DNA of 64,000 bases, taken from NCBI GenBank assembly GCA_002077065.1, contig NAJO01000017.1, positions 372,001-436,000 on the forward strand, in the 5' to 3' direction. Shown piece after piece: positions 1 through 48,816 of the stretch (positions within the stretch are counted from its first letter, which is position 1; the number at the start of each line of letters is the position of its first letter). Position numbers and translations under genes: made by a program. Below the pieces are notes generated by a model. The model was not told the origin of the DNA. It ran no database searches and worked only from the letters and a program-made list of their open reading frames with translations. The stretch comes from Cryoendolithus antarcticus (Eukaryota > Ascomycota > Dothideomycetes > Cladosporiales > Cladosporiaceae).

Positions 1-2
1 GG

Positions 3-25644: not shown

Positions 25645-28600
25645 TCACGCAGCCGTAGCGACTCTCGGCAAAGCCAAATAGAAATTCTCCAACCCATCCA
25701 TCACATCCCTCAGGTTCGGATCGTCAGGCTTCTTCGTCCCCACCACTAATCTCTTCGGCAAGTCCGTGGTCAACTTCCAAGCCGGCTTGACTCCCACATC
25801 CGTGATCTTTGGGCCAGTAAGTTGTCCAGGCAAAGGCGCATCCCAGCCCAGAGTTGTTGCGCAGAGCGCAGCCATACCTGTTGCTAAGTCCAGCCCATCG
25901 GCACAGCAAGTCTGCCAAGTGGTTTGGATTTCCTTCCACTTCTGCGGCAGATACAGAGGATCGATCGGATGAGTCAGTGGAGCAGGGAGCAGGTCCTGGG
26001 TTTGGTCTGCGCCTGGATTGGGCATCGTCCAACTCTTGCCGTCATCGGTCAGGACTTCACTCTTCTGCGCATCCGTAGCGTTGAAAGCTGGGATATTGCT
26101 CTTCGACAAGATCGGATCCGGGGCTACGAGGCTGACAGCCATGATCTGCTTGATCGTGCCGTTGGCTGGGCTGAGAAGTTCCTGCCCGCCGCCTTTGATC
26201 ATCGGATCGCGGCTTTCATCGTAGTCGCGCCACAGCGCGGACGGGACATCTTTGACGACGTACGTGGGCTTCCAGCCAGTGATAGGTACGAGCTTCCCTG
26301 CAGCGGAGCGAATCGTGATTTTGAGTGTGGATGAGATCTCAGGATGACCGGGATCAGGCGGCGAACGCTCAGGATGCGGCGCGCTGAGATGCATTGGAGT
26401 GCTGCGTAAGGGTGCTGGTGTGTCCTTGGCAGAGATTTTCGCCTTGTCAATGTCACTGTAGCCTTCCTTGTCGTTTATGAGTTGAGCGATGCTGATCGCG
26501 AAGTCGGGTGCCACGCGGAAGGCAAAGCTGCCGCCCTTGACGAACCACTTGCTACCTGCGCCTGAGCTATCAGGCTGGGCATCTGCTTTTGCTGTGTCTT
26601 GTGAGGGCTTCGAGAACGCCCCGTCTTCCAGAGTGAGCTTGATCTGCTGATCGAGGCCTACAGTCTCGGGCCCTGTGGCAGGTGGCCGTCCAGATGTTGG
26701 GCCAGCCTTGTGGACCATGTCGTAGAAGTCGCTGAGAGTGAGTGGATCTCGTACCTTCCCTTGATCGCCAAAGTAGACATCGAAGCCAAAGATCCAGAAG
26801 TCAACGCTGTAATCTATCAGCCGATTGTCCGTGACACAGGTAGGGAGAGACGTACTGCGCAACACCGCCGAATTCAGGTCCCTCGATATGAAGATCTGCG
26901 CCAATCGACACCGAGATGTGTATAGTGATAAACAAGATATCGATGTCGCAACTGACCCCGATCGCGACGTGGACATCGGCCATATAGTGGATGGGATGTA
27001 GGTTCATCAGCGCATCGAAGGAAGCGTCGAGGTATGCACTAACAATACCTACTTGCAAGGACACGTGTATCATTGCGCCTCCCATGACAACTTTGGGTGT
27101 GATCGCGAAGTAGCCCTCGCCCTGGATGTGCACCATGTGACCTACCGTGAACGAGATGCCCAGGCGCTTCGGATTGGGATAGTGAGATGGTCTGCGACTC
27201 TGTCAGCCTCGTGCTCACGCTTTCTCACACAGGCGGGACTCATGCATTTGAAAAGAACGGTGATAGCCACCGACGCTGAACACCCAGTCCCCTGCGTGCT
27301 GTGATGTGCCAAACCAGTAGCATAAAGCGAAGCCTCCATACAATTGGCACTCTGGTACGAGAAGGAACGATGTTGGCGCAAGTGAAGCATCACAGCGGAA
27401 GTAGCAGTCGATGAAGTTCATCTCGGCGACTAGACCGATCTCGACGTAGAGGATCTGTGTGCCGCAATGTCAATTCTCATATCTTTTAGTTGAGTGGACA
27501 CGGGAAACCTTACCATGTCGGAAGTTTTCGTTACGTCTGGTGGCATCTGCGCGACAGCGTCTGCGTACAAACTCACAATGATCCCTGAGTCCCTGAAGGC
27601 GAGCAATGCTGCAGCTGTGATCTTCAGAATGTCGAACGCGGTAATCGTCATGCCAACAGCGAACCAGTATGAATCCTGTTTTGGGACCACCCATGGATTA
27701 TCTTCCTTGCACCAGGCTTGCAGCAAGTTGATGGGGTTGTTACCAACGCCAGGCAGCTCGCCAATGAGGGGAAATTGGGTAAGCTCTTCGATCGAAGGCG
27801 AGCGGATCATGCTGTTGTAGCCGAAGCCGATGCGGACACCACTGATCGTTGCTAGTCACTCAGGTCAGTACTGCCCGATAAGGTCGTCCAAGCATGCTAC
27901 CTCTAGAGCCGACTGGGAACATGGTTTGAGATGCTGCACTCACTACCAAATATCAGCAGATGCATAGTCCCAAAGAATGCAAGTAGGCTCACCCGAACTC
28001 AAGCTGGATGAGAGGGCCATCAAGCTTGGCAAAAACAAACAAGCTTTTGTACGAGCCACCGATCCTGAATGTGGCCTCCGCATACTGCCCAACAGCCACG
28101 AATGTGTACGGCGGGTAACTGATACCAATGCCACCTCTGTAAGCATCGAGTGTCTGTTCCACCGGCGGGTCGCCCACGAGCTGCTTCATGATCTCGTGTT
28201 CGAAGACGCCGGCGATCACCAAGGGCGGCTTCTCGAACGAGACACCCACACCATGGATCTGGAATTTGGCTTGACTGCCCAATGCGGCAAGGTCATTGAT
28301 TCTAGGGCTCAGACTGATATCTCCGAGAGGTAGCCCGATACCGAAACCGAGCAAAGTCAGGGCAACAGGGCCGAGGGCAACTGTCACATCGAGCATGATC
28401 CAGAGATAGCCGTCTTTGAACTGCAATGCGACGCTGTCGAGGGAGAAGAGCTTCGTGTGCGCTTTCAGTGCACCTTTTGTGGGAGCAGTCTCGTCGCCCG
28501 CCTTGTCGTTCGCTTTGTCGGCACCTTTCGCATTGTCGTCTGCCTTAGCTGGATCTTTTTTGTTTGAATCTTTACCATCATCCGTCGATTTCTCTGGAAT

Positions 28601-31174
28601 AGTGCTCTTGGCGTTGCTGAAGGCATGATCGAGTATACATTTCCCCTCGTGTACGACGATGAGGTGATGGCCCATAACGAGGGCTGTGACAGGGTCCTTC
28701 TTGTCGGCACCCTTGTCCGATGTGCCGCTCGCACCTCCCTCGGAGTTTGATGGCGTAGTCGACTGTCTGTAGAACAGCTTGTTTGCATCTCCCAGCTTGG
28801 GGTTGATAGCTTCCACATCGTCCGTAGTGAGTGCACCACCAGCTCCAACGTAAATGTATTGGCAGCCTTGAAAAGGTTGCGTGAGCTCTTTCAATATCGG
28901 GATGTCAGCAATATGTGGCAGCTCGCCAACCTTCACGCGCAGGAGTCTCTTTGGTATCGGCGGTGCTGTGGTAGTGACCTGAGTTGTGGTCGATGTTTTG
29001 CCATTCTCGCAAAGCTGAACAAAGGTGAAATCGATCGGACCAACTGCAATTTCCAGCGTCAGCACCAAGGCTGTGTCTACTGCAGCTGTCGTGATGGAGC
29101 TGCCACTCCCAGACGCGCCTGACTTTGCAGGTGGCGAAGTCTTTGACAAAGTCAAGCGTACAGGGCTGTCCCCCGCCCCGCTCGGCGCGATCTCAATGTC
29201 ACCGACGAAGCCAGGAAGCGCATCCGCAGCAGCCTGATCGATAGAGCCTACCACCTCAGCTAGCGTCGCCTTGGTGTTGGCTGCACCCAGGTACGCTTCG
29301 AAGGTCCATCCAGTACTCTTGTCGGCAGAAGTGGGTTTTGCAATGGGCTCGATCTCACCGATCGCGTCTGGCTTCTCTGCGAGCTGCTTCTCGGTAGCGG
29401 TTTCGGTAGCAATATCACTGGTGTACTGATATACTAGGTCAAGCTCGAGCAGACCAAGGCGTATCTTGCCCAGCAACAGGAAGCTACTCGCTTTGTTGCT
29501 CGACGTGCCATCGTCATTGGACGTCTTGTCGATGGTGTAGCGTAGTAGAAGCTGGCTGAGCACCAACTTGCCGAAGATGGCGCTGAATGCAGATGAACAT
29601 GAGGGGTCTGCATAGTTTGCAAGAGCACCAAATTGCAGATTATCCACTTCGCCAACCAGATCGAAATTGCCCTTCCCACTATCGTAGTCCATGTTGACAG
29701 TCATAGTTGCTGGTGTGTACAGCGCAACGTCTTCGGGTCGGGGATTGACCTGGAAGGCAGTGTCCACGTGGACAGTCACATCTGGACCTTGTTGAGTGAC
29801 ATTGATGACGAGGCTCGACCAGACGAAGGGTGACGGCACGGGTCCAGCATCAGTAATCTTGTCAGGCGGCTGGCTCTCGATGGCGAATGCAAGTTCGAAT
29901 CGCGCTGGACTTTCTTCATGTATGAGTCGTAGTGTTGCTTGGGATACGAAGTATGGTACATTATCAGGTAGCGACTTCGTTGCCACAAACAAGTCGTGGA
30001 GATTCAATACTTTGGCCATTGTACCGGGCGCCCGCATGCTCTCGTCAAAGTACGGCAATAGCATCATGACCTCATTGGCGAAGTCATTCTCGAAGAGCAA
30101 GCCACCCTCGAATGTCTTCGTGCGATTGTCGTAGGCAAGGCCGATCCAGACCGTAACCTCAGGCCTGATTACCCATTCGCAATAGAACTGTGCTTCCCAC
30201 CACATCGTACCTGCAAAGTCCTTCCCGAAAGAGACGTTCCTGAGGTGAATGTGGCCTTCGCCGATAACCGGTCGTAGTGCCGCCAACGATGAGCTTACTG
30301 CGGGATCATCATCGCAGCCTCCACTCATCAGATTCGACAGCTTCGTAAACAAGTCGCCGGTCTTTGAAGCTTCCTGTACATTGAGTGAGACGTCGTTCCG
30401 TTCGTAGATGAGGTTTACAATGAACCCCTTCAATCGCACAGTGAACGTCAGCTTCGGAGTGACTGTGATGTCGTACGTCGAGTCGTTGAGCAACGTGCCG
30501 GTTGTAGTGGTAGACACGGTGAACGAGAACAGCTTCGCAATAGCCTCCAAGTCGCTACCGTCGATTGTGCCAAGTGACGTGCCGAACTCGTGGTCTAGTA
30601 CTGATGTGACTTGCTGTATAAATCCCGTTATAGCGAGTCCGTTGAGCTTGAATGTCAAAGAAGTCACAGTCTGTAGCGTGACCATTGGATCCTTCATATT
30701 GTCGAGATCTTTGACCGGCGCCTTGGCTGGAATGAGCCAGGTCGCATTGCGGTTCTGGGGGCTCTGGTCTACGACTAAAACACTACCCAACCCTATAGCG
30801 TTGATGATCTTGTCGATGACATTCTCCGCTGTGTTGCCTCCAGGTGCTTTAAGCACTCCGAAGCCGAGGAGGACATTGTCCAATGTGACTGTTTGCGGAA
30901 GGCTGTCGAACGATAGCAAGACAATATCACCGTTGTTACCCACTTTGATAGAGGCATCTTGGAAGGTCGTGAAGTTCTGACGCGAGTTGTATATTGCCTT
31001 GATCGGTAGATCAGGCTCATATATGAATCCTTCGGATGTCGCGGGCGTCTCTACTGCAGCTTCGTATCTGAACGCGTCGTCGACGGTGGCGGATGATACT
31101 CCCTTCGCCTGCTCGAGAAAGGTCTTCCAGTTGGCCGTCAACTTGTGGTCATCTGTCAGTACGGCCGACGACAT
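25645..31174 (-). CDS. Giant DUF6603-type protein
   Basis: Exons 31174-27994, 27851-27514, 27454-27231, 27191-26856 and 26806-25645 sum to 1746 residues in one continuous frame. I recognise it, from memory, as the DUF6603 family, large beta-rich proteins of unknown function in bacteria and fungi. Its marks lie around the middle joins: GVGVSFEKPPLVIAGVFEHE, GGIGISYPPYTFVAVGQYAE, LDGPLIQLEFATISGVRIG, NFIDCYFRCDASLAPTSFLL, GDWVFSVGGYHRSF, AITPKVVMGGA, LHIEGPEFGGVAHVDFWIFG. Residues before about 1000 are less conserved, with a Lys/Asp/Ala low-complexity linker (about 28480-28600). There is no signal peptide or TM helix. The start is the ATG at 31174: the frame closes just upstream. The first intron is a twin intron; the third (27192-27230, 39 bp) is too short to trust, and its boundaries may differ by a few codons. 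It is divergent from the paralog pair and part of the 25-49 kb cluster. Confidence 0.75.
27852..27993 (-). other. Stwintron (twin intron, donor split after G) in the DUF6603 gene
   Basis: Reading on the minus strand, the exon ends TTCG at 27994. G27993 is followed by an internal intron 27992-27943 (GTGAGCC..., CTGAT, ending GGTAG; 50 bp), then TGAGTGC at 27942. Removal creates GTGAGTGC, the donor of the external intron that ends TGACTAG at 27852 (92 bp, CTGAC near the end). A single excision from 27992 would shift frame and lose the conserved ATISGVRIGFGYNS block; two-step excision restores it. Confidence 0.75.
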
Positions 31175-31862
31175 GATGTCGAGCCTGCTGCGGATGTCGA
31201 TCGTTGTCGACTGCGCAAGCACATCATTCTGCTACATCGATTCACGTACGCCGTCGGAGACATGATGTTGGGCTCCGGCACAGACCAACACCGAACACAC
31301 GTGACAAACGCATCTACCTCGTCTCTTCGAGGCATGTCACAACGGTCGCTGTTGTTGGAAGCGAGAGCTGTTCGTGGCTGGCTACGTGCTGGGGGAGCTG
31401 TCGTGACGAAGACTTTTGGCCTACCGGTACAATGCTTGGCCAAGCTTTTGCATGTCGCCAGCCATGGACCGCCTCGTCGCTACACCATCATGTACTGTGC
31501 AGCTGCTGCCTGACATGCGAAGTGTAGCGATCCCTGGTTCGCCGCTCCACATCTACCGAGCTGGCTCCACGCTGGCGCACGATTGCTCAGGCTCATTGCG
31601 GACTGCTCGGACGCGAGCTGCAACCTACATGTACCCAAGGTACTTCCGGGTCGCTGTGGTCTGTGGCTGCCATGGCACATGATACGCACTTACAACCGTG
31701 CATGTCAGAAATGCGGCGCGATAGCTTCGTACGATGCTGGAGCATCTGCGGCCAGGATCTACAGAGCACGTGAATGGCTTAAAGCAAGCTGGTCGCGTTG
31801 ACGAAGCGGTATTCGTATGACTTCACATCGTACTCGAAGCCTACGCTGGCTCGAGTGTCACA
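31175..31862. promoter_or_regulatory. Bidirectional promoter region of the cluster
   Basis: 688 bp between the divergent DUF6603 gene and paralog A; shared control is plausible. No clear binding site identified. Confidence 0.4.
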
Positions 31863-33660
31863 ATGGCCATACCCGGACCAAGGCTTGGAATCGAAATCGA
31901 GTTCCATGGTATCAATGTACGTATGCAACCTTTCTGTCCGTAGCACAATGCTCTGACCATTGAGTTGACACGCTTTCTTGAGGTGGTCTGGCGGCTGAAC
32001 GACGAGGAAAGGTCGTTCTATCCTCCGCCTGACGACGATGAGCTCTCCATACCCGTACGATCGTGGGATGCAGCGCAAGGTCGAAATGTCGATGCACCTA
32101 TTCTCGTGCCTGAACATGACGCGCAGTACGGGACCGAATCCAATGTGACTTGGGAAGGGCTTTTTGGCTTTCACTGCGTTCCTGACGCAACTACAGACAC
32201 GGACATCCTCTTCGCGGCTGGCGGAAGTGCTCCTGCAACTTTCTGCGTACTGGAATTGAACAGCTCGGCCCAGGAAATCGGTAATTACGAGTTCTGGATA
32301 CAGCTCCATATGTGCTCGAGGGTGTTTCATATGGCAATCCTTCAGTTCGCAGATCCAGGCTCAGCCAAACAGGCTGACCGACTTCCAACGAACCTGTACC
32401 CCTTGGCGGAATTCGTCAAAGAGTACAATTCGCGCGTCGATCGCATCGAGTTACCTGCTGGAATCGTAGACTTCCGGCCTCTCTTCAGAGTTCGCTTGAG
32501 CGATAGCATCAAGCGGCTAGCAGCTGGTGAGGATCCTCGATTTAAGAAGAAGAAAGAGCGGTGGAGCCCATTCTTCAAGGTAGCGAAAGGCAGGTCTCAG
32601 GAGTACTGCCACGTCCAAGTAAGTCATCCGAATACTAAGGAGGGAGTCACTACTAACAGACAAGGTCAACTTCCAAGTCGACCTTGGCTGGCTGGGTACC
32701 AATGTGGACACATTCGCTCGTCTCTGGTGGCACACATGGGTGCACAGGTTTCGCAAAGAATTGCCACCCCTCGAAACAGACGTGCTCGTCTTCGTGCATG
32801 AGTTCAGCTTTCGTTTCGTTAGCGTGGACGAGGTGTACCGGACCATGCAATTTGCTGCACTCTGGCGAGTGGCTAGGAAACGTGCTGCACAACTTGTGAC
32901 AGAACACGGAGTCGGGCGCCTGATCGAACCGGCAAGAAGTCAGATCATTGGTCTGCTAACATACCTATTGGCTGCGGGCTCACTCCTACCATCGCGTGCT
33001 ATGGGACTTACCGTCAAGAACATCTTCCCCCTGTTGCCTAAGACTTCCCCGGCTGCACTCGCGCGCGCAATCGTGGCACAAGACGCCTCCGGCGCTGCAC
33101 TGGAAACGCTCGCAAACCTTTGTACCGATGATGTTGCGGCTACAGCGGAGCAACTGGTGCAGGTCGAGATGAGAAGCCTATTCAATCTTGTCCGAGATGG
33201 CGATCTAAGGGTCACCACTCCCCAATTCGCGTATCCCGGGCTCCCAACATTCAATCATGGCGTCGGAAGGCGCAATATCTTCGACGGCGACCCGCCTCCC
33301 AATTTTGCTGCGATGTGGCAGGCTGCGCTAGAGCCAATCAACCCTGATTACAACAGGGCACACAACTTTGGATTCTACGAGGGCGCGCCCTTCCACGTGG
33401 CCTGGAGCAGCGACGTCCGTACCGCAGTGCCTCCGACTTCTGGGACCTCTCCTCCACGGCTGACCTTTGAAAGCCGGTACGCCACCTGCATCTTGAACAT
33501 TGGATGGAACCCTGGCTCCTTATCATACATGCTCGAGAAGTCATACTTACCCCTGATCAGTGAGTTTGCACCTGTACAATTACCTGCCGCCTCGACTGCT
33601 GTCCAGGCTCTGGGTAGTAGGCCAGACATAGATTGGAATTTCGAAGCTGGCTGGCATTGA
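31863..33660 (+). CDS. Cluster paralog A, N-terminal G-I-E-I-E-F motif (amidoligase-like?)
   Basis: Exons 31863-31916, 31983-32618 and 32665-33660 (introns 66 and 46 bp) give 561 residues. I do not firmly recognise the family. The N-terminus, PRLGIEIEFHGIN, has the G-x-E-x-E-F pattern that opens amidoligase-type ATP-grasp-like enzymes, but the later motifs of that family are not evident. Visible blocks shared with paralog B: YGTES-V-WEGLFGFHC, VELNSSAQ-x-G-Y-FWIQLH, VDLGWLG, HTWV, RSQI-GLLTYLLA-GSL, KTSPAALA, GAPFHV-WS-DV, AVPPTSGTS and LTFESRY. No signal peptide or TM helix; probably cytosolic. It is transcribed divergently from the DUF6603 gene and followed 549 bp later by paralog B. The start gives the motif right at the N-terminus, as in B. 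Confidence 0.7.
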
Positions 33661-34209
33661 CTTTGAAAGTAGATAATGCAGTAGCATCATCTCGTCGTCT
33701 TCTGCGGTGGCGGTTGCGCGCGCAAGTGAAGTACGGTTGTGTCGTGGTGAAGCGAGGCATTGTGGCGTGCGTGAACACGACTTTTGCACGTCAACTCACG
33801 AAGCTCATGCAACTGCAGTAGCCACGGAACCACACTTCTCGCTACAGACGGCATACTGTGAACAATTGTTGTCTCACGCCTTTCGTGTTCGCTCGAACGG
33901 TGGCTGGCTGGCCGGCGTCTCGTTCGGAGATCACCGACCCGTCCCGTATGCACGTTGCCAGCAACCATAGGTCATCGCTTGCGCTGGATCTGTCGCGCCT
34001 GCCCCTGGAAGGCTGCAGACGTGGCACCCCACTCTGCAGACCCTCCACGGCCAATCGTACACGCTCTATGCGTTGCCATCTGCACGTCAGCCTTCTGCAG
34101 TACGCTTATAGACCATGTAGCTGCGCTGGAGTCGAGGTTGCTGCGAGTAATACGTCGACCATGAACACCGCACATGGAGCTGGTGGGATGCGTGGATCTG
34201 TAGGACAAC
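33661..34209. other. Intergenic between tandem paralogs
   Basis: No gene and no evident leftover of a further duplicate copy. Confidence 0.5.
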
Positions 34210-36043
34210 ATGGCTACCGCGGGACCTCGAATGGGCGTGGAGCTGGAGTTCCCTGGCTTGGAAATTCTTTGGACCTTAGGCGATGAGAAGAGGACCTTCT
34301 ACCCGCCGCCTGGTCCGCGGATTCCTGCCGTTCCAGTGCTGGAATGGAATGCCGCGCGAGGAAGATATGACCCCCTTCCAATACTGGTACCAGCGGAGCC
34401 GTCACACTCACAATATGGCACGGAATCAGACGTCAACTGGGAAGGGCTGTTTGGATTCCACTGCGTGGCCGACGGTATTGGGGGTATGAAAGACGTCTAC
34501 TTTGCCGACGGCCCTCCAGAGACCAATGTAAAGTGCTGCATCGTGGAACTCAACAGCTCCGCGCAAGACGTTGGGGACTACCAGTTCTGGATTCAACTGC
34601 ATCTCTGCACGCGGAAATTCCGTGATACAATTTTGTTCTTCAGAGACAAATCATCTGTCCCAGGCAAGAACTCGTCCATCACCATTGATACACTGCCCAC
34701 CGTTCTACGACCGCTGAACGACTTTGTTACCAAGTATAACTCGCTTGTCGACGAAGTGAGTGTGCCCACTGGATTCGTGGATTTGCGCAATATGTTCAAG
34801 ATTCAATTGAGCAACAAATTAAGAGCCTGGCGACCGGAACGGATCCCCACTTCGACGAAGTGCATTGGACGCCCAAGTTCAGAATCGCAAAAGGCCCTGA
34901 CCAGGAGCACTGCGTTGTTCAGGTAAATGACCTGCGAGCACGTATCTACAACATGAGTGCTGATCAAAGCAGGTCAATTATCAAGTCGACCTCGGCTGGC
35001 TCGGTGCGCATGTCGAGGACTTTTGTCGTCTCTGGCAGCATACGTGGGTCTATAAATTTGGTAGGGGTCACCCTCAGCTCGATTGGCCTGTGGTGCATTG
35101 GGAATACCCGATCAACGTTCGAACGGTGAATGTAAATGATGTGCACCGAACCATGCAATCTGCAGCCCTTTGGCGCGTTGCTGGGAACTGTGCTGCTAAG
35201 CTCGTAAGGCTCGCACTCGCAGCGGCAGGAGACGAAGGGGCAAATGGCGAAGAGGAGAAAGGACAAGAAATTGACTTGCGCGAGCCACAGCGGAGTCAGA
35301 TCGTTGGACTGCTTACCTACTTGTTGGCCGTGGGCTCGCTGACCCCGACATTGACGATGGGACGGACGCCGAAGAACACATATCCCCAGCTGCCTAAGAC
35401 TTCCCCAGCTGCGCTCGCTCTAGCCGTCGTTGCACAGGACACTTCTGGAGCAGCGCGGAGACTGTTCCGGGGGCTTTCGCGGGATGCATTCGTCTCAGGC
35501 GTCGTGCGGCCGCTAGTTCTGACGGAGGTCAGGAACATCGGCAATCTGGTCACGGTTGGTGGTCTCCGTCAAGTGACACCTCAGCCTGCGAATACGACAC
35601 TGGAAGTCACTTACGACCGAGGTACTGGGGCGAAGGACATACTTGCGGGTGGCGAACCCCCACTCTGGCAAAGTATGTGGAAAGCTGCGCTAAGTCTTGA
35701 TGCCACAAACCTGACTGCCGCTTATAGGTTTGGCCTCTTCAGCGGAGCTCCTTTTCATGTTACGTGGAGCAACGATGTGCAAACGGCGGTGCCGCCAACC
35801 TCTGGTACGTCCGTGCCGCTCCTCACGTTCGAAAGCCGGTATGGCTGGAACGTAATGAATATAGGATGGAGTCCGTCCACTAGTCGCTTCATGTTCGCTA
35901 AGTCCTACTTACCCTTGGTGGCAGCTCTGGCACTAGCGCAACTAGCAGCTGCTACGCCTGCTGCGCGCGCACTGGGTACAGACAGACTCCCGTTGGCCCT
36001 GAATCTCGAGCCGGAGTTGAATCTCATTGCTGGCTGGAACTGA
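34210..36043 (+). CDS. Cluster paralog B, with an apparent one-base deletion
   Basis: Tandem paralog of A, similar along its length. It begins MATAGPRMGVELEFPGLEILW, lacks A's first intron, and has an intron at 34923-34972 in the same place as A's second (VVQ/VNYQVDLGWLG). The frame from 34210 runs correctly to QLSNK (about 34818) and then turns into non-homologous sequence. The frame matching paralog A (SLATGTDPHFDEVHW, FRIAKGPDQEHC) resumes one base out of register. No plausible intron bridges this; one A missing from the AAA at 34816-34818 would explain it. Downstream the exon from 34973 is open to TGA 36043 with all paralog blocks conserved, so either the base is a sequencing error or the break is very recent. 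Function as uncertain as for A. It contains an extra charged insert (GDEGANGEEEKGQE) absent from A. Confidence 0.65.
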
Positions 36044-36369
36044 CTGATCTCCTGAAACGCGAAGAGCCTCACAGTGGAGTGGGCGCCATGCTGAGCATAT
36101 AGAACGGCATACTCTATGCCGGCAGGTCGAATGCTGGAGAGTCGTCGAGATGTACTGAAGACAGGGATGAGATTACGGAAGGGACGATCATCCACAAGCA
36201 CAGTGCCGGACAGCGTCCAATGGGGCGTAGCAGAGCATATGCGCCGCTGAGAGTGCAGAATCCGCGGCATGCAAAACTGATGATTGACGTTTGGGAACAA
36301 CGCTCTGGGGAGCGATGATTACATGACGGTTTCATCTACGACGCAACCAGTAATGTGCGTACGTAGCCG
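36044..36369. other. Intergenic, convergent
   Basis: 3' flanks only. Nothing recognised. Confidence 0.5.
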
Positions 36370-37332
36370 CTACAAGATGTTCCTGCCAGAGATTCTCGGC
36401 AACCTCCACACAAATCCAGCCGCCATTGCCGCAAGCCCAGCACTCAGCCATGCCGCCGAAGCGTACACACTCAGAGCCTTGCCCTGCACCCACGGAGAAT
36501 GCTCGCGGTTCAGTCCGACCACAGTATCTCCATTGTTGTTATTGCCGAATGATGCGAATGCGCCATTGTCGGGAGCTGACTGCACGAATGCTAGCACGCC
36601 GTAGAACTGCGCGAAGATGTAGAGTACTCCACCGAAGACGAAGCAGAAGATTAGAAGAACGTTGAACCATGGTGCTACGGGTAGCAGAAAGCGTTCATGA
36701 GGCCGTTTGCGAACATGCTGATGCTGGGGCTGATGCGAGTGTGCCGTGGCGTGCTTTGAGGCTTCCGCGTGGGCCTCCGACTCCCGAGGTGAGTCTTGCT
36801 CTGCTGCGTTCGGGGTGAAGATCATGATCATGGAGAGAGAGGCGAGGAAGAATGTAAAGAAGAAGCCTATGCCGATGAAAGACGTGCTGGCGATGACGAG
36901 CTAGAAGTTGGCGTTAGCTCCATTCGTTGGCTTCCAAGCTGCACGACTACTCACATTGCCAGCCCAGTGGATCTGCTGGCACAGGCGTTCATCGCCATAG
37001 CGAGCATCAGACTGCGTAAGCGTGTAATTGAGCGACTCGCAGCTTGTCTTGTTGCTGCCAGACGAACCGAATCGCTGGCAGACGTAGGTGTAAGTGTTAT
37101 TGCGAGAGTCGAGACTCAAGGTAGTATTGTCTCGTCTGTAGCCACAGATCTGGAAAGGTGAACGGTACTCGGTCGAGTCGATCGTCGCTGGACTCCATTG
37201 AGATTGGTCATCTGTGTAGAAATTCCGAGAAGACCAATCCTTATGGGTTGCAGCCGTGATGGCGAAGGCTATTGCGACTGTCGCGAGCGCGAGTGGTGTC
37301 AGGATAGCTGCCAGACGTGTGATCTTCGCCAT
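36370..37332 (-). CDS. SUR7-like tetraspan membrane protein
   Basis: Two exons (37332-36955 and 36900-36370; 54-bp intron GTGAGT...TTCTAG) give 302 residues. Helix 1 (LAAILTPLALATVAIAFAITA) follows a five-residue tail, then an extracellular loop of about 110 residues with paired Cys and N-glycosylation sites. Helix 2 (IASTSFIGIGFFFTFFLASLS) is rebuilt across the intron. A His/Gln/Glu-rich cytosolic loop (ATAHSHQPQHQHVRKRP) precedes helix 3 (FNVLLIFCFVFGGVLYIFAQ) and helix 4 near the C-terminus. This is the SUR7/claudin-like four-helix plan seen in fungal plasma membranes. It sits inside the unusual cluster, between the paralog pair and the 1199-aa gene, so it may be its membrane partner or simply a bystander. 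Confidence 0.75.
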
Positions 37333-38202: not shown

Positions 38203-41200
38203 ATGGCCCGCGATATCCCCCTCCGCCACATGGCAAAGTTCCTGGCGGCTAACGCAGGAACGCCATTTGAGCCGCCTCTTGTCAAGCCTGGTGAGATGCA
38301 GCTGTACTCATACTATCGTCCCGGCCTGCTCGCAGGCGATTACAGTATCAATGTTGAGCAAGTAATCGAATCGGACAGCTACGAATCCAAGGACCCACCC
38401 AACGACCACGATAAAGGGTGGAGAAGAAAAAAGCTCTCGAAGCAGAACAGACGAGAGGCATCACAGAATGTCTTCATTCCAGCGCCTCAGGAGTTCGAAG
38501 TCATGGCGCCCCAGTTTGCGATCGAGAGATCCATGGTGAATAGCTACTATCCACCGGACGGTCACCAGGACGAGGCCAGAATCTTGCCACACATCGTACT
38601 CAACGATCCGCATTTCCCATGGGAGCGTCATGCAGGTGCTGGTGTTCTCATGCCCGACTTATGCGATCCCGACCTTGAATCTGATCGCGTGACCCCCAAA
38701 ACGTCAAATCCGCCGACTAACATGTTCCGTAGTGCAGTACCATGGGTAAGCATGGATGCAGGCGATTGCTCTCCTGTCATGACACTAATAAACGCCCCAG
38801 CTGGCAGTCATGGTATTCGACCCGGCAGAGCTTATACTTCCGGTCAACTTCAAGCCGAATCTCATCAAGGACTCTCCGTCAATCGATCTGAAGCTCGACA
38901 AACAGCCGCTGAGCGGTGCGTTCGCCATGCAGGTGCAGGAGTACATGCGTCTCACTCTCGGATCTCGAATCAACTACGACGCTGGTTTTGCCACCGACAC
39001 CAAGGGTCTAGACGAATTGAAGGCCTCCAACGAGGCGATGACAGCCATCTTTCCGACAAAGGCGACCTTCCTCAAACTATTCACGCAGACCGCCGCTGAT
39101 GGGACTATGCAGTCGAATGTTGAAGGCAACAAATACCTTGCTCACATGCGTGCGGTATGTTCAGCCCAATCAGGGCGCTGAGAGTGATGTGTTTGGGGCA
39201 ACGCTGCTGACAGTCGACAGGTCAACACAGAAGGCTTCCCCGATGCTGGCGTTGAGCAAGTCGGCAATTACAGTATCGTTGTGTCCGGTCGGACTGCAAG
39301 ACTTGACCTCACGGTACCGACTACTCAAATTTGCCATCTCATCTCTATTGAGCATGTCGATTCCACGCTACAGGGCGTGCACGATGCTGTCAAGACGGAT
39401 AACGATGCGATTGCTGCTGAACTCCTTGCCGACCCCAAAAGCACGAAGGTAGCGACCGTAGGCATGGAGCGCATTGCGATGGTCTCTCTGTTCTCCTGGA
39501 CGTATACAGCGCTGCCTCCCCATCCGTGGGACTTTGTAGAGGACACTCGTGAGATCATGAAGAGCATGCAGATGCTGAAGGCCCCACAAAGTCTACTGGA
39601 TGTTCTTGTCGAGGCGTCGAAAGTCACCTCCGCAACACCCGCTGTAGCCACCAAGCAAGCGAAGACAGCTGGTGCTCTGCACAAGCGGCTCGACGCAGGG
39701 TATTCGCTTGCCAGGTGGCGGACTGAGACTGGCGAGGAGACTGCAGCTTTCAGTCGAGGGCCTCTTGTACCACAGCGGGTCCAGTGGCCACCACGCGATG
39801 ACTGGTGCGCCGGAAGCAACACTTCTAAAGAGTATCAGATTCTCGATCCAGCCACTGGTCTCATCGATCTTAGCTACTCCTCTGCATGGCAACTTGGCAA
39901 AGCTTTGGCAATCGCTGACACTGCCTTCAACGCCGCTTTGATGCGTTTCCGATCACTCGTATACAATTGGGCAGTCAGCAAGGTGCATAGCGACGACAAT
40001 GGAGTCACCTCGACCCATACCATAATTGCTGGGCTCACGGACAAGATGAAAACGCTAAAAAGCCTGGCGAAAGGCACCAGCACTCCCGAACCACAAAGGA
40101 TCGTGCAGCCTACGGCAAGGACTCTTCCACCACATGCGATAGACGATCCTGCAATACGCCCCAGGATTGCACTTGCCATGAAGGATGAGATCGCTAAGCA
40201 AACCAGCGCAGGGAGCGCGATCTGGACCGAGTTCTCTCTTGACAAGCCAAACAACTCCGACTGGCCACTGATAAGCTCTTGGCTTGCGAACAAGCTATCT
40301 CTTGCCGACATCCCGGCTCACTACCTGATCCCCGACCCTTCATTCCTCCCGAATGAGTCGCTTCGATTCTTCCATATTGACCGAAACTGGACGGACTGCC
40401 TCATCGATGGGGCTCTGTCTGTGGCAAATCATCTCGATCGAGACGACGACTTGGTCCGAGACTATATCAAGGGCGTCTTCAATGAGTATCTGAAGGCGGA
40501 CGTAGGTGGTGCGCATATGCAGGTCCCGTTCAATGGTTTCATATTGCGGTCTCAGATAGTGCAGGTGATGCCTGACTTGCGCATAACGGTAAGACGATGC
40601 ATGCTGACTGCAAAGCCGTGACTGCGACATGCAGCTGACTTCTATACTTACAGGTGACATGGACAGGCGACGATCCGAAGAAACCGGCCTCTCGAGCACC
40701 GTACTGCAGGTACACCAAGCTGGACGATATCACATTGCTCTGTTTGCTTGATCGTCAAGTGGAGGAACTGGACAATATCACATTCGCACAGCCGCCTCAT
40801 CAGCAGCGTTTCAGTTTAGGGTCCTCGCTCACCACCACAGGTCTGCCCAAATTCAACCTGACGAAGCTTTACACTCGCTCGCCACTGGTGGGAAAGGACT
40901 GGCCGACATTGTCTCCATCACCTAGCGATACGGAAGCTGCAGCATGGTATGATGTAGATTCTCGCATGGTCAGGGTAACACCACTGGCCAAAGCTATCAA
41001 CGCGAAGCTCACTTTCGGATCCGCAAGTGGTAAGGACGAAGCGTACCTTGATTACGTTCCCAACTCTGCTGAGCTCGCCATGGAACTCAACGATAAAGCA
41101 TATTACTTCAAGGTCACGCCATCGACCTCAATAAGTAAGCTTGGGGAGACAGACATACGACAGCTATGGTGCGCTAAGTCAAGAGATTGGACGACCGATC

Positions 41201-42043
41201 CTGTCGAGACCGAGGACACTTCTGCCACTGCTGGAATGGGCGAACAGGAGCCTGACGGGATCTCTCAAGGTGATCCTAAGAACAACATACGAATCCAAGC
41301 TCCGTTTGACCCTCCTGCTCGAGCCGTGGCTTCTACGAACGTGACAGTGACGGGAAAACCAGCGGACATCTCACCCATCATGAACAGCAACAGGCAATCA
41401 TGGGTACGTTAGGACGTGCTCGCGAACAGATGACTTATATACTGAGACCACTCCGTAGTTTTCCCTCGACATCTTCCCTGATTACAAGGGTAAGCCTCCG
41501 AAATGGGACCGCGATGCATACGATCCGAACGGCTATATACCCATGAAGAACGACTACCTCTTTGATCTCATCTTCGTCATACGTAAGTCAAGCGGTGGAA
41601 ACGCTCAAAACTTGGCAGAGGTTGTGGTCAACCTTCCACACTCTGGGGTCACCGACGTCGAAGCACTCGTCGATGTGAACTACAATGACCCCCGCGCCCG
41701 TATGCTCTCGAACCAGCGCTTTGTCGTGTACATCAATTGGACCACTACGCATATACAAATTCGGGTTGTGCCTAGGAGTGCCAAGCCTAGACCGACCATC
41801 GTCATGAACGATGAGAGAACGAGGGACCTGAGTTTCCGACTTGCAGAGGTCCCGATTGCACTCGGGATCGGGCCAACATCGGTGAATGTGCATGGGCAGG
41901 GCCAGCAGCCGGGCTTCAGGACAAAGGTGAGGTGGGAGGAGAAGTACTACACCGATGACATGAGAGCGTTCGTGTCGGTACCCGGAGGTGGAAAGGGAAT
42001 CAAGGAGCTTTGGAAGGTCGATTCGGGCGATCCTGGCAAATGA
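38203..42043 (+). CDS. 1199-aa cluster protein of unknown function (bacterial-type family)
   Basis: Exons 38203-38745, 38801-39154, 39221-40588, 40654-41403 and 41459-42043 add up exactly to 1200 codons with stop. Every join keeps frame (VPW/LAVMVFDP, HMRA/VNTEGFPD, LRIT/VTWTGDDP, QSW/FSLDIFPD). No catalytic family is recognised. Visible blocks are SYYRPGLLAGDYSINVEQVI, FEVMAPQFAIERSMVNSYYP, ILPHIVLNDPHFPWER and PWLAVMVFDPAE. From memory this order (a 'Y-P-L-AGDY' opening, an 'F-V-AP-F' block, 'LPHVVL-LPWER', then 'PWLAVLLFD') is that of a large bacterial hypothetical-protein family. No signal peptide or TM helix; the second half (from about 380) is mixed alpha/beta with no landmark. The start at ATG 38203 precedes the conserved opening by about 30 residues. 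It shares orientation with the next two cluster genes. Confidence 0.8.
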
Positions 42044-42453
42044 GACGCCATACCATCAAGTGTTCTGCGACCTTGGCGAATTCATATTGTGATCTTGATA
42101 CGATGCTGGACGAGAAATCACATGCCAATAAACAAATCGTGCGCATTTGGTCGTTTCCGTGAGCACATGCAAGAGAGGATCACGGCCACGTTTTGATGCA
42201 GGTGACGCCTCGAGTGAGGCGTTGAATGTGCCTGGACAGGTGTCAATCGCCTTCATTTGAGTTGGGATGTGACTTCACTACAGGCAACGGAAATTTGCAG
42301 CACGCGCACGGCGGTAGGCGATCTCACGACACACTCAATGATCCACTAACTCCCACTCCACACTGACATACAATCTTCTCCTTTGTTCAAAGCACCACCG
42401 ACTGTTGCCGTTAGTGTCTATTCGCATCCACAACCTCCACAGTTTACGCCGAG
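42044..42453. other. Intergenic
   Basis: Promoter side of the 284-aa gene. Nothing recognised. Confidence 0.5.
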
Positions 42454-43427
42454 ATGGCGCACAAGTCTACCTCAGAGCAGGTCAACCAAGAAGAGCTCGA
42501 TAGGCAACTCAAGCGCTCTGTCATGATCAAGAAAGGCTTTGGCCCTCTCATCTACCCTGAGTACAACTGCTCTCTCAAATTCTACAGTACGGACATCACC
42601 GTCAGGAAGTGTCCAAAAGCTACAGCGAGAAGCTACTCAAGAAGGCGCATGAGATCGCCGCAGACACAGAGCGCAGCAATCGATCGAAGACGAGCGTCTC
42701 TGAGAACGATGTCCGCAGATTTAAGGACACCCACCTGCGCTCCAGACAAATGGTCGGGCATAAACCAAACGCCGAGATCAAGCGTGTGCAGTGCGGCTTC
42801 CTCCTGGTCGAAGATCCGCTTGATGACGTTGCGAGCCGTAAGGTACTGAAGGATTGGCCGATAGTGACGACCTTGAACCTGCGAGGCCATACGGAGCTGG
42901 TGCAGAGGCATGTGCGTGACGCGCAGACCAAGACGAGCAAGATCATCTTGAAAGTGAGTCTCGAAATCGGTTCCTTGCTGTGGTCTAAGACATCGATACC
43001 GACGTCATTGCAGGGTATGAAGAGACTGGTGGAGCATTCTGGAGGTATAGGAGCATGGAAGCAAGCCAGCGACGACCAGATCCGCGACCTACTCATTTGT
43101 CTGTTCGACGAGTTTCCGCTCACCATCTCGAAGCTGGTGTTTTGGTACGAAGACGAAGCCGTGGCCATGGAGCGCATCTGGCGCTGTTCATTCGACGAAG
43201 GCAAGTGGCAATCCCTCTTCCGCACGAAGTTCATCGATCTCGCCCAGTCCACCTGGGAGCATCGCATCAAGACCAAGAAGAGTGGACACGCTGTGCAGCT
43301 GGATGATTCTACTGGCCTGAAGCTGTCCGAGGTGTACAATATCCCTTCGCGGCCACACCGTTCGCATGGTAAGGAGAACTGGGATAGCTTCACCGCGGAG
43401 TTCGGGGCATGGTATCGCAAGGAGTAG
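42454..43427 (+). CDS. 284-aa fungal orphan protein
   Basis: Not recognised. Exons 42454-42560, 42620-42953 and 43014-43427 (introns 59 and 60 bp) give 284 residues. The first intron is inferred from phase: the 5' frame runs into unlike sequence, and GTACAA...AAAAG (42561-42619) rejoins it in frame as LIYP/DYSEKLLKKAHEIAAD. The second intron (GTGAGT...TTGCAG) joins KIILK/GMKRLVEH. The product is charged and mostly helical, with Lys/Glu-rich ends, a central FDEFPLTISKLVFWYEDEA and a basic stretch HRIKTKKSGH. No signal peptide, TM helix or known motif. It sits between the two giant cluster genes, so it may belong to the system or be an insertion of an ordinary fungal gene. Confidence 0.7.
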
Positions 43428-44338
43428 GGAGCGCGAGGTGGTCTGTGGCTCGGGTGAGCGCGGATGTGTAGGCGCGCCGTCAGCAAAGAGGGACGGGCAT
43501 AGCCTCGCTACGAGAGGGCATACTCCGGGATCCTACGCCTCCCACAGAGCTGTCAAAGGAATGATGGGTAGACATTGGTGAAGTATGATGAAGTATGAAA
43601 TGCGCTGCGAGCGTCTCATCAGCGGCCCATTTGACATACCATACGATACCCACGATTCTCGAAATGTTTATATCGCAGGGTATGCTGCTATCACGTTGAT
43701 CACAGTAGTGCAGTTCTGTGTCATGGAGACGTTGAGAGGCAAATCGTCATGGATCTTAGATACGCAAGTGGCAGGATTGTCCAGTCGCTTCGGTATCTTG
43801 CTTTCTGTCTCACAAGTCTCGTCACGGGCACACGTTGCAGTAATACGCATTCCATTATTCTCCAGCTTGCTGAAGAAACGACGGCAGCGCTTGCTTCGAC
43901 ACTAACGGATCCGCCATCTGGGTGTGGTCGTTTACACGCTTCCATCACGAGATTCACACGCAGTGCGACAGTTGTTTCTGAGTATTTACTCGACACGTGG
44001 GTAGTGCATTAGCGGTGCGCTACGGGAAAGCTCCAGCTGTCAGCCAAGTCTGGACTACGGACGTGGCTTGCTCGTTTCCATGCAACGCCGGCCTCCCCTC
44101 ACGCACAGCTCATGCAGCTCGCCAACAATCAAGCCATGTTCGATACAATGGTCAGCCACGTCGCCGTATGCAGCTGCTTAGGTCTCACGACGCAACGGTT
44201 CTGTACACGACTTCTGTCCTCTGATATGAGCCAGCCACAGGCGACTATGGCAAGTATGGCGAACGACGAAGAAGAAGCATCAGCGTTGGCTTCGACGCTG
44301 TGTTCGACCCTCGAGACTCTGGGCTACGACGGACGACC
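43428..44338. promoter_or_regulatory. Upstream region of the 1398-aa gene
   Basis: 911 bp without a recognisable gene, apart from an upstream ORF at its 3' end, listed separately. Confidence 0.45.
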
Positions 44339-44348
44339 ATGGACGTAG
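44226..44348 (+). promoter_or_regulatory. Possible upstream ORF overlapping the 1398-aa start
   Basis: A 40-codon frame (ATG at 44226; in-frame ATGs at 44247 and 44256) ends at TAG 44348, overlapping the ATG at 44339 by ten bases in another frame. If it is in the mRNA it should reduce initiation at 44339. Transcript start unknown. Confidence 0.35.
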
Positions 44349-47300
44349 TCTGTATCCCGGCCGACCTGACAGCGTTCGTACTGAACGACAAGTCTTGCGA
44401 TGGACCCTCCTACCTGGCACCGATCACGCAGCCCAACTATATGGGCTTGCAACTCGAAAACAACTTGATACAGCACGATGTCTTGGACCATGTCGACTTC
44501 CACCTGTCCACTCCAGTTGGGAAGAACCCACGTCTGGCAGATCCTTCTACCAACCCATTTTCTCTAAGACAGAATCGACTTGGCGTCTATCTCCACTGGT
44601 CACTGCCTAGGCTCTACAGAACAGCAACAGCGACTACGAATGAGGCAACTGGCACTCAAGATCCCTCGCAGCCTGTCTTTCGCAATGTACCAAACAGGTG
44701 GTTGGTCATCCGTCATCTCAATATGGACACCCGCCACCCGAAAGTCGATATGCAACAGGAGTATCAGTCCTGGGTCATCGAAAGCGACAGAGTCCGGAAG
44801 ATCGACGACATCACAGACGACAAGACTGATCTGGAAGTGGACTGCGTGCCCTTCGTGGCTGCTTCGGGCAGCAACGATCCTACCATCTTCGCTCAACAGA
44901 TCGAGGTGTTTCTGGGGAGACGTGAAGCACATCTGGACTGGACTCCAGGGAAGGTGAATCCGCAGCCTGGATATCCGTTACGACCTGAAGACGCCGCACC
45001 GACTCCAGGGTTGACCGTGATGAATTCGTCGAATCCATTGTTTCCAGGTAGGTCTCACTGATCTCGCTAACCACCGACTTGTCGGAAGATCCCAGCGTTC
45101 TGTAGTAAACGTAAGCGATGTCAGACTATGTGTACTAGCGACGCTGCACGTTCACTGCGCACTTGCCTGATTTCGACTTGGCTTCTACACCACCCTGTCG
45201 CTCCTCCCTGACTTCATATATGAAGCAGACTGATTAGCGTCGATGGCATTGAATACTGGCTGACGGATCACAGATTACGTGATGCACAACAGCAATGTAT
45301 TTAGTATGATAGATAGCTTCCAGATGCCGAACACTTCAGATCACCTGGACACCGCTGATGCAGATTACTTCGTTCTCGGCTGGCATACAGATCGAAAGGA
45401 CTCGCCACTGTTCGACAGCAATCCTGATGTTGTGGGGACCCTGAGCTCCAGGCTTGCAACTTTGTTGCTTCAAATGCCAGACGGCGACTCTGATCAGGCG
45501 GTCAAAGACATACTTAAGGCCCATGGCATATACAACGTCCTCGTACACGGCAGCATCTATGGCGTCAACTATCGTGAGAGTCCGCAGCAGAAGACGCCGA
45601 GTGCTGCCGACGAAGTCGCTATCAAGTTTACTCCGAATGTCAAGATGGAGCCACTCTCGATGGGTACCACGGCACTCGATGGTATACTGACGTTTCTGGA
45701 AGCACACAACAAAGACCACATGAACGATGAGGAGACAGTCTTCGGTTCTGGGACAGGTGCCATTGCCGAAGATGTCCTTAGCCTCGCCTCGCTACTGTAC
45801 GCTTCAGACGACAGCTACAATGAGCGTGTGAAGGCTCAAGACCTACTGTACACAACAAACTATGCCAGGGATGCCGGTGGATTCGAATGGCACTTTGATG
45901 GCAAAGCTACAGACAACAAAGTCGCCTTCCCATCACCCACAGAGCAAGGTCAATTGGCAACATTGAACGACCTACAGTCAGAATACGACTCTCTCGCGTC
46001 TAAGTTGCAGTCGCTGCGGTGGGATATGTTCTCCCTATGGTGGAAGTTCGTCAGTGACCCAGGTTGGACCGATACAGGTCTCCAAGCAGATTACACATCA
46101 AAAGTCAGGAAATTGAAGAAACTGATCACCGATGCCAATGCCCGGGTTGGGGACCTTACCCAGCAGATCACTAAATTGAGTAAGGCTTCGACGTTCAAAC
46201 GGTCCGCCAAAGCTCCTTTCTTCATCCGCAAAGATCCTACGCTCTGCATAGCCGGCATCAAAAGTGGTTGGCCAGACGACTTCCTCGACAAGGCCGTATG
46301 TCGACTTGCACAGCAAGGCCCACTGAAAGTTCGCACGACTTCGCGGGCCGACGCATTCTTCAGCCAGGCAGGGAAGCCATTGTTCGGTGACAGTGATCTC
46401 AGGATACCTGCGCGGAAGCTATTTGAGGAGTTTTTGGATCGTGTGAGCAGTCCGAGTTTGATTGTGACCAGCGATCGAGCACATCGAGCTTGGGGTGGCA
46501 AGAATCCCTTCCAGCCGCTGTTCATCGAGTGGGAGGCTCAGTACTACCATATCGACCGACACGAGTGGTCAGTAGGTGTGAGCCCAAGTCCAGTTGGGCA
46601 TAAGCACTCGCAAGTGCGGTATCGACTGAACAGCCAGCTCAGCCCGGCCGACCAGAAGGACGTGCGAACGATCAGTGGTCGTGTCATACTAACTCCACAG
46701 CCGTCGTTCTCACTGGAAGCAGTCGTCAAACAAGCTATTTCGGGTGGGACTCCAAAGCCTGAGCCAGTGACGCCAGACCCGAACAAGCCGACCCCTGCTC
46801 CAGATCCATCAGCTGCTCAAGCTACGTTGGACTCCAGTGTGTTGCCTCTGACGCAGAAGGAGATCGACGACGTCTTGGCGAATATTCGCAAGCTGCAGTT
46901 CATCTCAGCGCCACTGAGCGGATTGACCGAGCACCTCTTGACACGTTACGAGGGCAGTCATGTCAAGCCTAATTATCGTACTCAGGGCCAGTCACTCACT
47001 TCAATGAAGGCAGCAAAAGACAAGTGCAAGGCTATCGACGCAGAGGTCGATAAGGGACAGCCATCGATGGTGGACCTCATCGGACCGGAGAGGTGAGAAT
47101 TGATGCAGCAGTTGACTGATGGCGGCTGAAACTGATGTTCAATATAGCGCACTCACGCCATACGCCAATCTGCTGTCTTTCGACAGTAAGAACTACCCTG
47201 GTGTACCTTTCAAGCCAGCGACACACGGTCAGATGTTCTTCACGAAGCTGAATTTGATCGACAAGTTTGGTCAGGCCGTCTGTGTCATCGAGCCCAAGCC

Positions 47301-48816
47301 AACGCCAAGGCCACGTGATGTCAACGATAAGCGGCCCTTGCCTCCCTTACCTCCAACTCTCTACCCATGCATCAGTGATTTCCTCAGCCCGGATCCATGG
47401 ATGAAGACGGAGAAGCTGAACACCGTCTACGACGAAGACAGGAACGATGTCGGCGACAAGCACAAGTGGCCCGTTACTCGCTTTATACAGCTCACACCTT
47501 CGATCAACCAAAACGCACGTATCAATGTGTCTTTCCTCAATGCCAATCTGGACAATAAGGCGCCCTACTGGTATGAGACTAACGATGACACCCACGAAAG
47601 TCCGGTATTTGGGTGGTTGGTCTTGAATTACCAAGACCAAGGTCTTCAATTCTTCTGCAGCGACGGGACCTTCTATCGCGAAGTCAGAGTGGGTGGACCG
47701 ACCGGCACTGTAGGATCCAGTAAATGGCTACCATTTAATCCTCCCAGCAAGGCTCAAGACACCGGCAACCGTCAGCTTGATGAGTTCATCGGAAGGGTCA
47801 CAACCTACGTCCCGACCAATGCTGATGGAACGCCAGTGAAGGACGAAACGCCCGCAAAGTACTTGCAAGCCCTCTTCGACATGATCAATGGCGCTATCAA
47901 GAATATGCCCTACCCTCCGAGCGACTACGCTGCTTTTGCCAACTCTATCGTTGGCAAGCCACTTGCACTCGTCAACATCGGGTGGTCACTTGAGCTGCAA
48001 GCACCTCCGTTGAAATATCAGAACACTCTCGGCAACAAACCCGCGAACGACCAAGATGACCTACTGTCGTACAAGTTTCCCATCAAGATTGGAGACAAGG
48101 ACAGGCCATTTGATGGGATGGTCGGGTATTGCATGACCGACAATGCTTCCAGCAACGCGACGCATTGGGACAAATTATTTACTTACTTTCCTTCCATCGC
48201 TAAAGACGCCACGAAACGCTTTATCAATCTCACGGCCAACCAGCTCTTCCCCTTATCGCCTTACTTCAATGATCCAGCCTTGACATCATCCATCATTAGA
48301 ACACGAACAGACAAGTACACCATAACGACAGCCATCATCGACCCCTACACGCCGATCCACGCCTTCTCTCCAAGCCTGCCAATCAAGTCTCTTCGCCTCC
48401 AGCCATGGACGATCCAGCAAGCTTTCTCCCGTATGACAGCGTTCTTCCGTCTCGGTCCGCACCTTCTGTCAGGCGACGTTCCAACTTACAATGAGAAGCC
48501 TCTTTCAGCTGAGACCTGGAACACCTCCACCCCACCTCAAGACCCCGGTGCTGCAAGCCCCATCGATAAGACAGCCACGGCACCTATACGCCTGCCAATC
48601 AGTGGTAGGAAGGGAATGTGGCAGTGGCTACAGCCCTACGACTTAGCTGGGGCGGATTCGAAGGCTGACCGCATTACGAAATTCAGTGCGATGGATGTTG
48701 GAGAGGAAGACACGAAGATACGCAAGGAGAGGGCACCGTATGCCTTTGTTGAGGGCTACCTTCAACTAGCCAGGCCATTGTTGAAGGCGGATATCGGTAT
48801 CAGTGCCGGGAAATAG
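44339..48816 (+). CDS. 1398-aa cluster protein of unknown function (bacterial-type family)
   Basis: Exons 44339-45047, 45274-47092 and 47148-48816 give 1398 residues. No enzyme family is recognised. Landmark blocks are VVCIPADLTAFVLN at the N-terminus, RLGVYLHWSLPRLYR, NVPNRWLVIRHLN, ADYFVLGWHTDRKDSPL, LVHGSIYGVNYRE, MGTTALDGILTFLEAH, and in the C-terminal third TPYANLLSFDSKNYPGVPF and KLNLIDKFGQAV. From memory these correspond to bacterial hypothetical proteins with 'GVHLHWALPDALT' and 'PNRWLV' blocks. A coiled-coil-like stretch (about 45950-46190) and a Pro/Asp-rich linker (PKPEPVTPDPNKPTPAP) separate N- and C-terminal parts. No signal peptide or TM helix. The first intron is 226 bp, far longer than neighbours, so it may be a nested intron. 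A 40-codon upstream ORF overlaps the start. Confidence 0.8.

Follow-up and report, generated by a model that had tools for sequence, protein, structure and literature searches.

Apolipoprotein B (apoB) and the bridge-like transfer proteins move or store lipid. Pfam PF20248 (DUF6603) is described as a domain of unknown function, and an operon with two fixed partners does not figure in its one-line description; we found no naming of DUF6603 in open papers, and neither there nor in the family libraries did we find a description of a three-protein complex of the kind considered here. Among antiviral systems, metallo-beta-lactamase (MBL)-fold genes are nucleases that several systems have acquired and that recur upstream, and the antiphage systems with MBL-nuclease modules include Lamassu, AVAST, Hachiman and DRT (PMC12799240). 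We describe a gene cluster in a 64,000-nucleotide stretch of the fungus Cryoendolithus antarcticus (contig NAJO01000017.1, positions 372,001 to 436,000 of the forward strand; hereafter the window) in which a DUF6603 gene lies with two genes for very large proteins, p1199 and p1398, neither of which matched a family in Pfam or NCBIfam. These three genes constitute a single conserved module of bacteria and fungi, as seen in the order and strand that they keep in bacteria, the linkage between p1199 and p1398 in fungi, the single clade formed by the fungal proteins and the purifying selection acting on the genes. Gene structures were obtained with a splice-aware script run on the window sequence, and the three core genes are the following.

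31174 to 25645, minus strand: DUF6603 protein of 1743 amino acids (aa), spliced model with 5 exons (31174-27993, 27841-27514, 27454-27231, 27191-26856, 26806-25645); PF20248 above cut-off, bacterial homologues
38203..42043, plus strand: p1199, core protein of 1199 aa with the motif 'ILPHIVLNDPHFPWER', gene model with 5 exons (38203-38745, 38801-39154, 39221-40588, 40654-41403, 41459-42043); fungal and bacterial homologues
44339..48816, plus strand: p1398, core protein of 1398 aa with the motifs 'VYLHWSLPRLYR' and 'VPNRWLVIR', gene model with 3 exons (44339-45047, 45274-47092, 47148-48816); fungal and bacterial homologues

The first protein is clearly a DUF6603 member, scoring 206.6 bits against a curated PF20248 cut-off of 27 (profile, window strand), with 79.6 bits for its N-terminal part alone and E values of 1e-40 to 1e-70 against bacterial homologues. 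As for p1199 and p1398, a search of 5.8 billion proteins returned full-length fungal homologues of each, the best at 98% and 93%, respectively. The first-pass annotation, made from the sequence alone, had the lengths of these two proteins exactly right and put DUF6603 at 1746 aa, three residues more than the spliced model.

The same three families stand side by side in bacteria from several phyla. When an alignment of fungal p1199 proteins was run against genome contigs of 84,980 species, it picked up two loci in bacteria, one in Paenibacillus tuaregi and one in a Methylococcaceae metagenome-assembled genome (MAG), and in both a DUF6603 gene precedes p1199 while a p1398 relative comes after. 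At least 1181 proteins score with a profile built from these two bacterial p1199 proteins, and the best 120 of the 1181 come from Paenibacillus, Streptomyces, Chlorobiaceae, Myxococcota, Hymenobacter, Roseibium and others; the trio also occurs on plasmid records of Streptomyces, Embleya and Paenibacillus. We then considered loci found through DUF6603 only, in overlapping samples of genomes around the two starting ones at several ranks (phylum, genus and order for Paenibacillus, order and phylum for Methylococcaceae). DUF6603 was above cut-off in 1/299 (the starting genome itself), 2/40, 11/246, 11/201 and 9/398 sampled genomes, a low and patchy prevalence. Once the two starting genomes and two below-cut-off matches had been left out, 30 such loci remained, of which 21 carry the full trio on one strand in the order DUF6603-p1199-p1398, one has DUF6603 and p1199 only, and eight have DUF6603 beside other large proteins. 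Eight of the ten records found through p1199 were examined (two from Streptomyces clavuligerus are not among them), and seven have the trio; the eighth, L012 (bacterial loci are designated by L numbers), has no DUF6603 and a split p1398. The trio is also present at two further loci on one Embleya plasmid (L046 and L047). Overall, 30 of 40 bacterial loci have the trio in this order, always on one strand (30/30), which bears out the statement in the first-pass annotation that relatives of DUF6603 and of the two large proteins (the 'LPHIVL..PWER' and 'YLHW.LP../PNRWLV' families) occur together in bacteria.

Bacterial loci vary around this plan. The p1199 protein is split over two reading frames in L039, L046, L049, L050, L052-L056, L062 and L063, and in L052-L056 the DUF6603 frames, of 3251 to 3518 aa, have a long N-terminal part, which in L052 is without a Pfam match. 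In the DUF6603 loci that we call type B (L037, L038 and L040-L045), the second proteins, four of which were aligned, have the N-terminal region of p1199 in common (probability 87 over 77 columns), and the third proteins, five of which were aligned, show no relation to p1398 or p1199. Seven of these loci (L037, L038, L040, L041 and L043-L045) encode a protein of 900-1100 aa and a giant one of 1500-1950 aa, some with a further protein of 570-670 aa ('LARQWQLGEF'), and the upstream proteins of type B loci differ (PhoD, peptidase M64 and, below cut-off, NAL1-like). Near two plasmid trios we noted other genes: in L013 (Paenibacillus polymyxa plasmid, 1-1894), phage baseplate V-like, GH-E nuclease and ankyrin genes 7 to 9 kb upstream, and in L011 (Streptomyces plasmid, 1-4034), a CATRA caspase/TPR-associated gene and a CHAT protein.

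In fungi, p1199 and p1398 lie on one contig in 11 named species. We built trees of p1199 (55 rows, 22 fungal and 33 bacterial) and p1398 (34 rows, 14 fungal and 20 bacterial) from hand-chosen sequences by a quick search, with some long branches and uneven composition, and in both a single branch, with a Shimodaira-Hasegawa-like approximate likelihood-ratio test (SH-aLRT) value of 100, separates the fungal rows from the bacterial ones. As judged from these sequences, the fungal clade fits one ancient acquisition, and we infer that the transfer went from bacteria to fungi because the bacterial spread is wider.

The genome of C. antarcticus contains a second copy of the cluster on another contig, C65, with p1398, p1199, a tetraspan gene, one gene for a protein with a GxExEF motif and DUF6603, and p1398 is found in these two places only. 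The protein B0A48_10949 matches the C65 copy at 99-100% identity. In both copies all three families are clustered and the bacterial order DUF6603-p1199-p1398 is kept; the one-strand pattern of bacteria is not, since in the window DUF6603 runs on the minus strand, opposite to p1199 and p1398 (plus), and the C65 DUF6603 is likewise opposite. Each copy is part of a larger duplicated region (window, at least 16736-51431; C65:571560-602999). Between them, the ratio of nonsynonymous to synonymous substitution rates (Ka/Ks) is 0.13 for DUF6603 (1734/1743 codons), 0.089 for p1199 (1197/1199 codons) and 0.111 for p1398 (1121/1398 codons), the DUF6603 and p1398 alignments each containing one aligned stop that we took as an overrun into an intron. 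With ratios of about 0.1, the genes are under purifying selection and have been kept working, which supports, if indirectly, the earlier description of the system as a working one. Nucleotide identity is mostly 85-92% in the left flank, 88% in the right and up to 97% in p1398, and falls to 59-79% at 25.5-36.5 kb, over DUF6603 and the GxExEF genes. Balancing selection, which we first read from this peak of divergence, was set aside because synonymous divergence (Ks) is uneven over the whole block, flanks included, running from 0.25 for p1398 through 0.34 for the tetraspan gene and 0.80 for p1199 to 1.27 for DUF6603, with 0.97 for a cystathionine-type gene and 0.59 for another gene in the flanks. 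The flank values leave out a mis-framed 'exons 2-5' row with a single stretch, as well as frames that are doubtful as genes, namely those on the minus strand of the flanks and frame 22472-23044.

Between the core genes of the window lie four further features.

31863..33660, plus strand: GxE1, 567 aa, with an N-terminal GxExEF motif, a fungal companion; gene model, homologue in the C65 copy
34210..36043, plus strand: GxE2, tandem paralogue of GxE1, by alignment to GxE1
36370..37332, minus strand: tetraspan membrane protein, 302 aa; gene model, hydrophobic segments
about 42453-43427, plus strand: orphan reading frame, a candidate gene

The first-pass annotation had treated all seven genes as one system. 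Five of them (DUF6603, GxE1, the tetraspan gene, p1199 and p1398) could be modelled at the places it had given, and the other two fared less well. GxE2 is about 45-50% identical to GxE1, and its reading frame shifts near 34815-34826 relative to GxE1 at a point where an intron would not fit; it is therefore a pseudogene or an assembly error. The orphan has no counterpart in the C65 copy and no Pfam match. None of the GxExEF, tetraspan and orphan genes has a relative in any of the 40 bacterial loci, and a single system of all seven genes is thus not supported. Nor does the claim of nothing ordinary between the genes hold for the tetraspan gene, which lacks a bacterial counterpart in those loci and is conserved from the window to C65 (Ks 0.34, Ka/Ks 0.103); it and the orphan are likely bystanders. 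GxExEF is a hallmark motif of amidoligases, and both GxE1 and GxE2 carry it near the N terminus, a likeness to Amidoligase_2 (PF12224); however, the models of both remained unmatched by that profile at E up to 1, its sole match in the genome being on contig C128, and they are no more than candidates for the enzyme of the system. GxE1 has no Pfam match and one homologue, in the C65 copy, from which no Ka/Ks was obtained, its synonymous sites being saturated. The GxExEF protein is a fungal companion that may stand in the enzyme's place. Away from the cluster, the window holds a repeat of about 230 bp (54733-54963) with at least 16 further sites in the genome at 67-79% identity.

It is precisely the absence of bacterial partners for the GxExEF, tetraspan and orphan genes that would suit an assembly of chance neighbours, each an old, vertically inherited and unrelated fungal gene. 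This we find scarcely credible: the three families are adjacent in bacteria, p1199 and p1398 share contigs in the 11 fungal species, and both cluster copies hold together. Homologues that never co-occur elsewhere, which the first-pass annotation had named as an outcome fatal to its proposal, are excluded by the bacterial trios and the contigs shared in other fungi, and unrelated vertical inheritance, the other such outcome, is contradicted by the same linkage.

Our preferred reading, which we put forward tentatively and as somewhat short of probable, is that the fungal cluster is a copy of the bacterial three-gene module, whose products would likely make up one large complex that contacts lipid through DUF6603 and delivers to a target membrane an enzyme that can be swapped. 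The steps beyond the conserved module are ones we infer. The three giant proteins would be made in the cytosol and assemble into one complex, to which DUF6603 would supply a lipid-contacting sheet; the protein encoded downstream would serve as a target-binding tip, and the enzyme encoded upstream as a cargo or effector. In fungi, for which we found no tip gene, the GxExEF protein possibly replaces the enzyme.

DUF6603 is predicted to form a long amphipathic antiparallel β-sheet, in a model that is weak, and its leading fold matches in Foldseek are apoB-100 and LptD, while p1199 is predicted to be mixed α/β with immunoglobulin (Ig)-like sandwiches. Repeating β-groove, AsmA or VPS13 lipid bridges are not among the 50 Foldseek matches listed. 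The same fold matches and amphipathic strands, together with DUF6603 frames that range from 832 to 3518 aa, as an extensible sheet would give, speak for a module that simply handles lipid, in which DUF6603 moves or stores it on a scaffold of p1199 and p1398 with no part in conflict. Yet nuclease-type swappable enzymes and fibre-like tips would have no obvious role in a lipid transporter, and the patchy distribution speaks against housekeeping; we regard this alternative as improbable. With regard to localization, a hydrophobicity scan (threshold 1.6; it is not a signal-peptide predictor) found no over-threshold N-terminal segment in the proteins examined, 11 from bacteria and the three core ones of the fungus. 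With no clear signal peptide in the scanned core proteins, the putative complex would be a cytosolic product that acts there or leaves by another route.

The genes flanking the bacterial trio are variable. Upstream, an MBL-fold gene is present in 6/30 trio loci (that of L050 just under the Pfam cut-off, 21.6 vs 22.7) and an Exo_endo_phos (EEP) gene, of nuclease/phosphatase fold, in 5/30, L008 being a sixth by eye, which makes 11/30 loci with an upstream enzyme, or 12 with L008. Downstream, the next gene encodes a common domain of about 190 aa in 15/30 trio loci, and the C-terminal ends of these proteins differ: a tail collar fibre in L033 (PHROG tail fibres, with Pfam Collar just under cut-off), a β-propeller in L009 and L034 (the only Pfam propeller models above cut-off being Cytochrom_D1 and Lactonase) and F5/8 type C in L014, while those of L008, L058 and L059 matched no Pfam family. 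The downstream protein of L039, which is without the common domain, ends in Fib_succ_major. Of three tip proteins compared with PHROGs, that of L033 matched tail fibres, that of L058 weakly matched one PHROG of unknown function and that of L008 matched none; the three core proteins of L008 matched no PHROG, and the phage or viral collections searched held no relative of p1398 or p1199.

One alternative is an intracellular conflict or immunity system, in which the giant proteins would detect a threat and then free or switch on the nuclease or hydrolase bound to them, and nothing would be delivered to other cells. The L033 upstream MBL, the sole one tested, is closest in PADLOC to the LmuA and RTasMBL models, and nucleases of the MBL fold are a recurring upstream feature of several antiviral systems (PMC12799240); the patchy distribution of DUF6603, its several copies on large plasmids and the lack of a clear signal peptide in the hydrophobicity scan point the same way. 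However, PADLOC returned no match for the DUF6603, p1199, p1398 and tip proteins of L008, no NTPase or sensor domain was recognised, and the tail-fibre, F5/8 type C and propeller ends suit surface binding more than cytosolic sensing, so that we consider an immunity system rather unlikely. Distinctly unlikely, in our view, is an extracellular or spore-coat layer or an adhesive appendage in which the enzyme is incidental: the module is also found in the Methylococcaceae MAG and elsewhere in that phylum, the core proteins inspected have no clear signal peptide, and upstream hydrolases recur.

Several observations weigh against the delivery complex that we prefer. No enzyme is recognised in 18 or 19 of the 30 trio loci, the EEP label of L008 being assigned by eye with no Pfam match, and the tip domain is not seen in 15/30. 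The eight DUF6603-found loci with other large proteins depart from the trio, although the contig of L042 stops inside DUF6603, where the downstream side is not visible. No defence model matches the L008 core, and the N-terminal hydrophobicity of the L008 EEP-like protein is near the membrane threshold (1.59 vs 1.6). The DUF6603 model is weak overall, with a mean predicted local distance difference test (pLDDT) score of 65.9 and a predicted template modelling (pTM) score of 0.52; other apoB entries appear among its Foldseek matches at probabilities of 0.23 to 0.60, and the root-mean-square deviation (rmsd) of its matches to apoB, LptD and porins is large, so that they do not fix the closure and curvature of the sheet. 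Soluble β-sandwich proteins have amphipathic strands too, the control here being seven p1199 strands. In fungi, linkage to DUF6603 was seen in one genome only, in both copies, and the cluster there yielded no tip, MBL or EEP match (E up to 1; 1025 frames from the window and C65:575000-602999, where the three core profiles do match). Since no relative of these was found and the neighbouring gene in both copies is GxExEF, the fungal version of the delivery complex may act inside the cell.

With at least 1181 p1199-profile proteins at hand, one structure or knock-out would annotate many 'hypothetical' giant genes. A role in delivery or immunity would make the module a novel type of machine, and its maintenance by purifying selection in fungi would then be an unusual example of eukaryotes retaining a bacterial system of several genes. 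Rather doubtful is the most far-reaching form of the proposal, a categorically new machine in the shape of a three-giant particle with a lipid-wrapping β-belt (DUF6603), a tip for binding and an enzyme that can be exchanged, which many bacterial phyla would use on other membranes and which fungi would have captured whole, once, and run with a GxExEF enzyme.

How does the module compare with what has been described? Its first protein is a member of PF20248 above the curated cut-off. The DUF6603 model resembles the solved structures of apolipoprotein B-100 and LptD in its long antiparallel amphipathic β-sheet, but with an identity of about 5-10% and a large rmsd we claim fold resemblance only and no membership. 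With the MBL modules of Lamassu, AVAST, Hachiman and DRT it shares the MBL-fold gene upstream of the core in 6/30 trio loci, that of L033 fitting such PADLOC models; it differs in its core, where in L008 PADLOC finds no match and no HamA, Avs or LmuA is recognised. Tc toxin complexes and contractile-injection particles were compared by analogy only, and although the L008 core has no PHROG match and no Pfam family but DUF6603, the module may be likened to them as a large assembly with a swappable binding tip and a swappable enzyme.
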